The notes below the pieces were generated by a model. It worked only from the letters and a program-made list of their open reading frames with translations, made no database searches and was not told the DNA's origin. Source: Brumimicrobium oceani (lineage in GTDB: Bacteria; Bacteroidota; Bacteroidia; Flavobacteriales_D; Crocinitomicaceae). From it: 64,000 bases of DNA. This document shows positions 42,251 through 43,687 of this stretch, piece after piece; position 1 is the stretch's first letter; each line of letters opens with the position of its first letter. The stretch is taken from NCBI RefSeq assembly GCF_003143775.1, contig NZ_QFRJ01000002.1, positions 392,501-456,500 on the forward strand. The letters run 5' to 3'. A program made the position numbers and the translations under genes.

Positions 42251-42258
42251 TACCTTTG
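42251..42258 (+). promoter_or_regulatory. -7 promoter box TACCTTTG for the flavin reductase gene
   Basis: Exact TAnnTTTG match 24 bases before the ATG. Its TTG (42256-42258) is in frame with the gene and can be mistaken for a start. Confidence 0.55.
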
Positions 42259-42282: not shown

Positions 42283-43179
42283 ATGTTAACATTAGAGCCG
42301 AAAGAACTTCCAATTCCAAAATTACATCATTATTTATTAGGAGCCATAGGACCTCGTCCAATTGCGTTTGCTTCTACAATCGATGAAAATGGAACTCCTA
42401 ATTTAGCTCCGTTTAGTTTCTTTAATATTTTTAGTGCCAACCCTCCTATTTTGGTTTTCTCGCCAGCAAATAGTGGGCGTACTGGGAAAACTAAGGACAC
42501 TTACGAGAATGTAAAAAAAGTAGCGGAATGTGTAATTAACATTGTGAATTATGACATGGTGGAGCAAATGAGCTTATGTTCCTCTCCTTACGACATTAAC
42601 ATCAATGAATTTGAGAAAAGTGGCCTTACTCCAATTCCATCAGAAAAAGTAAAACCATTTCGTGTAAAGGAATCTCCTGTTCAATTAGAATGTAAAGTGA
42701 TTGAAGTAAAAGAACTAGGAACTGGTGGAGGAGCTGGAAACTTAGTGATATGTGAAGTCATTAAAATTCATATCAACAAAGAGATTTTAGATGAAAATCA
42801 AATGATAGACCAGCATAAAATTGATTTGGTGTCAAGAATGGGAGGAAATTGGTATTGCCGCGCCAACAAAGACTCAATGTTTGAGGTTGAAAAACCTGTT
42901 ACGGCCATTGGAATCGGTTATGATAATATTCCAGAAGATATTCGCACGAGTGAGATTTTAACAGGAAATGATTTTGGTAAACTAGGGAGCGTAGAAACCC
43001 TACCCAACGAAACTGATGTTAACGAGCACAAATTAATTGAATTATCAGAACTTTTTGTAACTTTAGAAGACGAACCAGCCAAATTAGAGGTAGAATTACA
43101 TAAATTAGCGAAAGAATATTTAGCTAAAAATGAAATTGAAGCCGCTTGGATGACATTATTAGCATTTAATAACCAATAA
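42283..43179 (+). CDS. flavin reductase-like domain protein
   Basis: A 298-residue soluble flavoprotein of the flavin reductase/FMN-binding split-barrel group (DIM6/NTAB-like). FMN-binding features: LLGAIGPRPIAFASTIDENG, NLAPFSFFNIFSANPP and the late SRMGGNWYCRA. The extra C-terminal helical segment of about 50 residues (LSELFVTLEDEPAKLEVEL) is seen in the longer subfamily. ATG 42283 was chosen; the TTG at 42256 is inside the promoter box. Followed after 16 bases by the DUF3127 gene, so they may be cotranscribed. Confidence 0.88.
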   Translation: MLTLEPKELPIPKLHHYLLGAIGPRPIAFASTIDENGTPNLAPFSFFNIFSANPPILVFSPANSGRTGKTKDTYENVKKVAECVINIVNYDMVEQMSLCSSPYDININEFEKSGLTPIPSEKVKPFRVKESPVQLECKVIEVKELGTGGGAGNLVICEVIKIHINKEILDENQMIDQHKIDLVSRMGGNWYCRANKDSMFEVEKPVTAIGIGYDNIPEDIRTSEILTGNDFGKLGSVETLPNETDVNEHKLIELSELFVTLEDEPAKLEVELHKLAKEYLAKNEIEAAWMTLLAFNNQ

Positions 43180-43195
43180 AATAAACAACAACATT

Positions 43196-43570
43196 ATGTT
43201 AAGCATTTCAGGAATTGTAAAAGTAAAAAAGGATACTGAGCAAATCACAGAGAAATTTAAGAAAAGAGAATTCGTAGTAACAGATGGATCAGGAAACTAT
43301 CCTCAAGATATTTTATTTCAATTGACACAAGAGCGTGTTGACTTATTGGATAATATCAACGTAAATGACGCGGTGAATGTAACTTTCAATTTAAGAGGTC
43401 GTGAGTGGACAAACCCTCAAGGTGAAGTAAAATACTTCAACTCTCTTGATGTTTGGAGATTAGAGAAAAGCCAAGGTGGTGGAGCTCCTACTCCAATGGA
43501 TATCGCTCCAGCAAGTGCTGATAAGGCGGAGACGTTGGTAGACGAAGGAGACGACGACCTTCCTTTTTGA
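43196..43570 (+). CDS. DUF3127 protein with SSB-like acidic C-terminal tail
   Basis: A 124-residue protein. Residues 1-90 are the DUF3127 domain (SISGIVKVKKDTEQITEKF, KREFVVTDGSGNYPQDI, VNVTFNLRGREW), a beta-rich fold compatible with an OB fold. It ends after a flexible linker in DEGDDDLPF, which closely resembles the tip of bacterial SSB (DDDIPF) used to recruit DNA repair and replication enzymes. DUF3127 is common in Bacteroidota. I infer a nucleic-acid-binding role; the tail is seen directly. Ends 16 bases after the flavin reductase gene, and a 71-bp hairpin follows the stop. Confidence 0.85.
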   Translation: MLSISGIVKVKKDTEQITEKFKKREFVVTDGSGNYPQDILFQLTQERVDLLDNINVNDAVNVTFNLRGREWTNPQGEVKYFNSLDVWRLEKSQGGGAPTPMDIAPASADKAETLVDEGDDDLPF

Positions 43571-43640
43571 TTAGAAGACGCGATAACGGCGTTGGAGTAA
43601 ATTTTAAAATTAACTCCGCCTTGTTCTAGCGCCTTCTAAT
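43570..43640. repeat. 71-bp imperfect hairpin after the DUF3127 gene
   Basis: Outer arms ATTAGAAGACGC (43570-43581) and GCGCCTTCTAAT (43629-43640, one mismatch), middle arms GGC / GCC, and a central near-palindrome GGAGTAAATTTT/AAAATTAACTCC. The outer arm begins with the last base of the stop codon. No T run follows, so it is not a simple terminator. Confidence 0.7.
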
Positions 43641-43687
43641 TCAAAAATTGAGATTTAGGAATAAACATTAGATTTGAATTTTAAAAT

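Follow-up and report, generated by a model that had tools for sequence, protein, structure and literature searches.

The single-stranded DNA-binding protein (SSB) is a hub of bacterial DNA metabolism. For the SSB of E. coli, the accessible part of one source names Trp40, Trp54, Phe60 and Trp88 as the aromatic residues that stack with DNA (PMC8509808). According to the part of the report available, the SSB of phage HK620 needs its last six residues to bring the Sak4 recombinase to SSB-covered single-stranded DNA (ssDNA) (PMC5928155). In the available portion of a further source, an SSB from a Pantoea phage is reported to contain a DUF3127 domain (PMC8004638).

Phage members of the DUF3127 family are already called SSB by PHROG and RefSeq, and the cellular protein is still named only as a DUF. 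The literature was searched for DUF3127/PF11325, for paralogues and tails of SSB, for SSBs of phages in general and of Flavobacterium phages, and for gene essentiality in Bacteroides; among the entries listed, judged by titles and the beginnings of abstracts, there was no study of the cellular protein. Here we describe a cellular DUF3127 gene in a stretch of 64,000 nucleotides from Brumimicrobium oceani (the window). The analysis makes it probable that its product is an accessory SSB which covers ssDNA and recruits the enzymes that bind SSB tails. The features of the locus are:

42283..43179, + strand: flavin reductase-like gene (PF01613); the ATG at 42283 was chosen as start, the longest frame begins with TTG at 42256
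43196..43570, + strand: DUF3127 gene, 124 aa, starting with ATG; SSB-like OB domain, disordered linker and SSB-type tail
43199..43468, + strand: OB domain, residues 2-91, five strands with a helix between strands 3 and 4 (AlphaFold2 model; closest solved structures SSB/PriB)
43469..43546, + strand: linker, residues 92-117, predicted to be disordered and not conserved (column conservation, pLDDT)
43547..43567, + strand: acidic tail GDDDLPF, residues 118-124; the last six residues are those of the best-scoring SSB of the cell
43565..43650, + strand: long imperfect hairpin at the stop codon of the DUF3127 gene and beyond (z -5.6)

The OB domain and its relation to SSB and PriB

Residues 4-90 of the protein match the Pfam family DUF3127 (PF11325) with 87.2 bits against a curated cut-off of 27. 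The profile of PHROG 4932, whose name 'single strand DNA binding protein' is an annotation, covers residues 3-124 including the tail (E 8e-33, profile positions 2-117 of 117); PHROG 44, which carries the same name, is matched weakly (E 1.4e-4). An NCBIfam search returned no family for the DUF3127 gene or for the flavin reductase-like gene. The nearest relative on genome contigs is a protein of B. mesophilum with 99% identity. The hairpin at 43565-43650 is present at one place in the host genome; terminator prediction called none at this position, and the structure is possibly a transcript end or a processing site.

The AlphaFold2 model, based on 95 aligned sequences, has a mean pLDDT of 83.7, with 87 of the 124 residues at 90 or higher. 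In blocks of ten, pLDDT is 93-97 across residues 1-90, and it is below 50 at residues 95-115. The modelled secondary structure (E2-11, E22-30, E37-44, H45-51, E59-72, E78-91) corresponds to an OB topology. Using Foldseek, the 34 best rows were all bacterial SSBs (best E 5.1e-6), followed, among the matches listed, by RNA-editing OB proteins (9dei), MCM, Rim1 and PriB. VIA-align gave a tie between the best SSB (Z 12.7) and PriB (Z 12.3), and the identity to solved SSBs and PriBs is 6-19%. The preliminary description had called the domain OB-like, and structure prediction bears this out with a confident OB model whose closest solved structures are SSB and PriB.

A relation to SSB was also detected by profile methods. 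A profile-profile comparison with seven of the host's eight SSB-like proteins aligned residues 18-123 with 95.5% probability and an E of 1.5e-8, a value that holds for one comparison and in which the common tail raises the score. The alignment pairs GREWTNPQGEVKYFNSL with TRSWQDEAGVTKYTTEV of the SSB, and tail with tail. When the family profile was run against the sequences of solved structures, the best match was Deinococcus SSB (E 0.0013); with the single protein as query, no significant match was obtained (best E 0.81). The Pfam SSB profile (PF00436) did not match the window protein even at E up to 1, and weak matches were obtained in 22 of the 95 relatives (best E 0.0016). Judged by its sequence, the DUF3127 protein is SSB-like but stands outside the canonical SSB family.

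Trp71 is present in 99% of the 95 sequences and aligns with the Trp of the TRSW motif of the host SSB (TRSW/TRKW position), and on the basis of this alignment we take it to be the counterpart of Trp88 of E. coli SSB. Of the four stacking aromatics of the E. coli protein, the alignments show a counterpart for the Trp88-type position alone. Conserved positions of the domain also include the basic residues K23, R24 and R69.

The tie in the structural comparison bears on the possibility of a PriB-like primosome factor, that is, an SSB-fold dimer which hands ssDNA to PriA and has gained a tail. PriB chains lie within 1 Z of SSB, and the available part of the source reports that an engineered PriB with an SSB tail surpassed PriB in ssDNA binding and in stimulation of PriA (PMC8509808). 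However, PriB itself has no tail according to the same part of that source, the 14 solved sequences matched by the family profile at E up to 1 include SSBs but not one PriB, and several phage copies adjoin exonuclease and Erf genes. We consider a PriB-like factor unlikely.

The searches also brought up proteins of RNA metabolism, which would suit an RNA-binding OB-fold protein or a translation-related role. Weak matches to IF3_C were found in 35 of the 95 relatives (best E 0.0016) and were thus commoner than those to SSB, RimM was matched weakly in 7 of the 95 with the lowest E of all stray matches (0.00089), IF3 chains were weak matches (E 0.15-0.27) when the profile was run against solved structures, and the fold searches listed the RNA-editing OB proteins (9dei). 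Against this, all sequence matches to IF3_C and RimM are weak given that 95 proteins were scanned, neither fold search has an IF3 chain among its 50 listed matches, and the context of the phage genes is DNA metabolism. We also know of no role of the conserved SSB tail on RNA. Such a function appears highly improbable to us.

The C-terminal tail and the SSBs of the host

The C-terminus of the 124-aa protein reads LVDEGDDDLPF. The open reading frame and the predicted disorder of the linker confirm the earlier claim that the protein ends with DEGDDDLPF after a flexible linker. The conservation of the tail, proposed there as a check, turned out to be near-invariant in cellular relatives: all 80 relatives from genome contigs (best 80 of 424) end with [LI]PF, and all 35 relatives from other whole genomes end with PF, 34 of them with [LVM]PF and one with EAPF. 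These 35 comprise the 30 best-scoring loci of the matches in 222 genomes and 5 further genomes. Among the viral relatives with a stop codon (n=79, from the best 80 of 192), 63 end with [LIVMF]PF and one more with PPF; 64 of the 79 thus have a PF end and 15 do not, which indicates that not all phages require the tail.

As a control, the other open frames of at least 100 aa were inspected, and [LIVMF]PF ends were found in 2 of 714 at the genome-contig loci and in 5 of 662 at the viral loci. The whole-genome loci were left out of the control; their 10 matches all were DUF3127 proteins missed by the first search. With such frequencies set against a near-invariant tail, a chance acidic end as the origin of the tail was rejected. 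Averaged over alignment columns, conservation reaches 0.89 for the last five residues, compared with 0.66 for the domain and 0.27 for the linker. Since the tail is conserved while the linker drifts, we conclude that selection maintains the former and not the latter.

Both control matches at genome-contig loci are located on one contig (L139), which is filed under Peregrinibacteria and on which the DUF3127 gene adjoins a VapE-like primase and has no flavin reductase; this contig is probably a phage or misbinned. Several large proteins near DUF3127 genes have [LIVM]PF ends with acidic residues close by, which resembles mimicry of the SSB tail (L025:1626-3917, L139:5352-7565, L046:6583-8418, L076:7493-8491 and L021:4413-5417). 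The types represented are VapE/primase, Toprim, a possible AAA protein and a possible DNA methylase.

The host genome contains one DUF3127 gene and eight genes that match canonical SSB. The best-scoring SSB (L002) ends with SEDDDDDLPF, and its last six residues are the same as those of the DUF3127 protein. Six of the seven other SSB-like genes encode no acidic tail and the seventh ends with NENDF. Tail-less genes form two separate three-gene clusters (L003-L008, at G000:C1:335367-336546 and G000:C4:105983-107116), which are alike gene by gene and are possibly part of mobile or recombination elements. Across 24 further genomes from the phylum, 23 of 30 SSB matches, taken from 41 in these genomes, end with [LV]PF, and they are spread over 23 of the 24 genomes.

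Distribution in cells and phages

Of 395 genomes that sample the phylum, 222 gave a DUF3127 match. For the class the figure is about 96 of 98, the window's genome included, and a single copy is present in 216 of the 222; class and copy counts were made by eye on a list taken to be ordered with nearer kin first, in which 153 of the non-matching genomes do not appear. Only a Bacteroides had a match among 14 well-known control genomes. The genomes G292 and G391 are the only ones of the class among those listed without a DUF3127 match, and the best-matching SSB of G292 ends with DDLSF, not with PF. A plasmid-borne copy from Hymenobacter is annotated as 'DUF3127 domain-containing protein'. An origin of the cellular gene as a prophage remnant is not favoured, because the gene is near-universal in the class, is present in one copy in nearly all genomes that carry it and, on genome contigs, mostly has the same chromosomal neighbour.

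This neighbour is the flavin reductase. In the window, the upstream gene at 42283-43179 matches PF01613 with 78.6 bits and is separated from the DUF3127 gene by 16 nt, a gap that makes cotranscription of the two genes likely. A flavin reductase lies at most 200 nt upstream on the same strand in 67 of the best 80 of 424 genome-contig loci and about 1 kb upstream in 2 more; the remaining 11 are without it, one of them having no upstream DNA. The second most frequent neighbour was seen at 16 of 100 compared loci. At whole-genome loci the gene was present in 5 of 17 (taken from the 30 best-scoring), all of family f6, and in wider loci covering both strands in 1 of 20, also of f6. Outside the flavin-reductase group, the 14 largest clusters of neighbours in these 20 wider loci contained none common to several loci. 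None of the 64 viral loci with at least 1 kb of upstream sequence has a flavin reductase. As the gene is adjacent in only part of the group, the pairing is not general to the function of the DUF3127 protein. The cellular DUF3127 gene is not near replication genes, and a link of the flavin reductase through flavin-dependent steps of nucleotide supply would be a guess.

The phage genes are found in a different environment. Relatives are contained in 109 phage records, of which 108 are named after genera that we take to belong to Bacteroidota. In five annotated phages the RefSeq name is single strand DNA binding protein, and the genes in the vicinity include, for instance, Erf, NinG, RusA, an exonuclease, a helicase or a primase. 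When 146 neighbours at 25 viral loci were assigned to families, the named ones that recurred most often were exonucleases, helicases, primase/helicases, methyltransferases and Erf annealases; several of the most frequent families are nameless, and one protein may match several families. We searched 36 DUF3127-bearing phage records, consisting of 31 of the best 80 viral loci (contigs, which may be fragments) and five isolate phages described as complete, and found no canonical SSB over the cut-off. The only two sub-threshold SSB matches (E 1.9e-4 and 6.5e-4) were both inside DUF3127 genes. Other phages commonly have a canonical SSB, among them 80 Flavobacterium records, and 62 records in all give F. 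columnare as host. Phage DUF3127 members probably stand in for SSB.

In a phylogenetic tree host and phage copies are intermixed, with at least six label changes on well-supported branches, which indicates that exchange did occur; the bootstrap of this tree is not settled and many forks are open.

Proposed function and comparison with known systems

The preliminary description had left two readings side by side, a second SSB-like protein or a competitor for the partners of SSB. As a competing regulator, the protein would display its tail mainly to titrate SSB-binding enzymes and not to coat DNA. The identity of the last six residues with those of the host SSB and the stronger conservation of the tail (0.89) than of the domain on average (0.66) are in agreement with this. 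On the other hand, the domain, too, has conserved positions, namely Trp71 and the basic residues K23, R24 and R69, and the phage copies in recombination and replication modules without a canonical SSB over the cut-off suit an acting SSB better. We therefore give a competitor only a small probability. The same modules, in the 36 records, support the second SSB-like protein, which fits them better than the competitor does.

As an accessory SSB, the DUF3127 protein would coat ssDNA with its OB domain. The disordered linker would hold out the tail, and the tail would dock into the pockets with which genome-maintenance enzymes also receive the tail of SSB. In the cell the protein most likely acts alongside the main SSB and on part of the ssDNA, for example during repair, recombination or the restart of forks. 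For Bacteroidota phages, the gene context suggests that it is probably the phage's own SSB for exonuclease/annealase recombination and for replication. A broader picture, which we put forward tentatively, would be that the class possesses two SSB hubs with common partners which divide the work on ssDNA, and that many phages use DUF3127 as their only SSB and draw on the repair enzymes of the host. A near-universal second protein with the same tail in a large class would alter the way in which replication, repair and recombination are investigated in these bacteria. A second SSB-like protein would also explain how many phages of the class may manage without a canonical SSB.

Canonical SSB (PF00436; L002 in the host) and the DUF3127 protein have in common the OB fold, predicted for the latter, the flexible linker and the DDDLPF tail, and the GREW/TRSW region aligns. 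In contrast, they belong to separate Pfam and PHROG families, the DUF3127 protein does not match PF00436 over the cut-off, and both coexist in the cell. PriB resembles the DUF3127 protein in its SSB-type OB fold with tied Z, and differs, as far as the accessible part of the source describes it, by having neither linker nor tail (PMC8509808). The SSB family of lactococcal phage Orf14bIL67 is, in the available part of its description, likewise a phage SSB family distinct from bacterial SSB (PMC3208561); the Pfam family Phage_SSB gave a weak match in only 1 of the 95 DUF3127 members (E 0.011).

The phage DUF3127 proteins of PHROG 4932 belong to the same family as the window protein over nearly the full length; examples are those of Flavobacterium phages 11b, Fpv5 and mumin9-1, Cellulophaga phage Nekkels_1 and Tenacibaculum phage Gundel_1. 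Unlike the cellular proteins, they have a phage gene context, no flavin reductase neighbour (0/64) and, in 15 of 79 cases, no PF end. The SSB of phage HK620 is described as a bona fide SSB for which recruitment was shown by experiment in the part of the report available (PMC5928155), whereas for the DUF3127 protein we infer the role. Together with Sak4, the HK620 protein provides a precedent for recruitment by the tail, and in several phages with DUF3127 an Erf or exonuclease gene is found close by.
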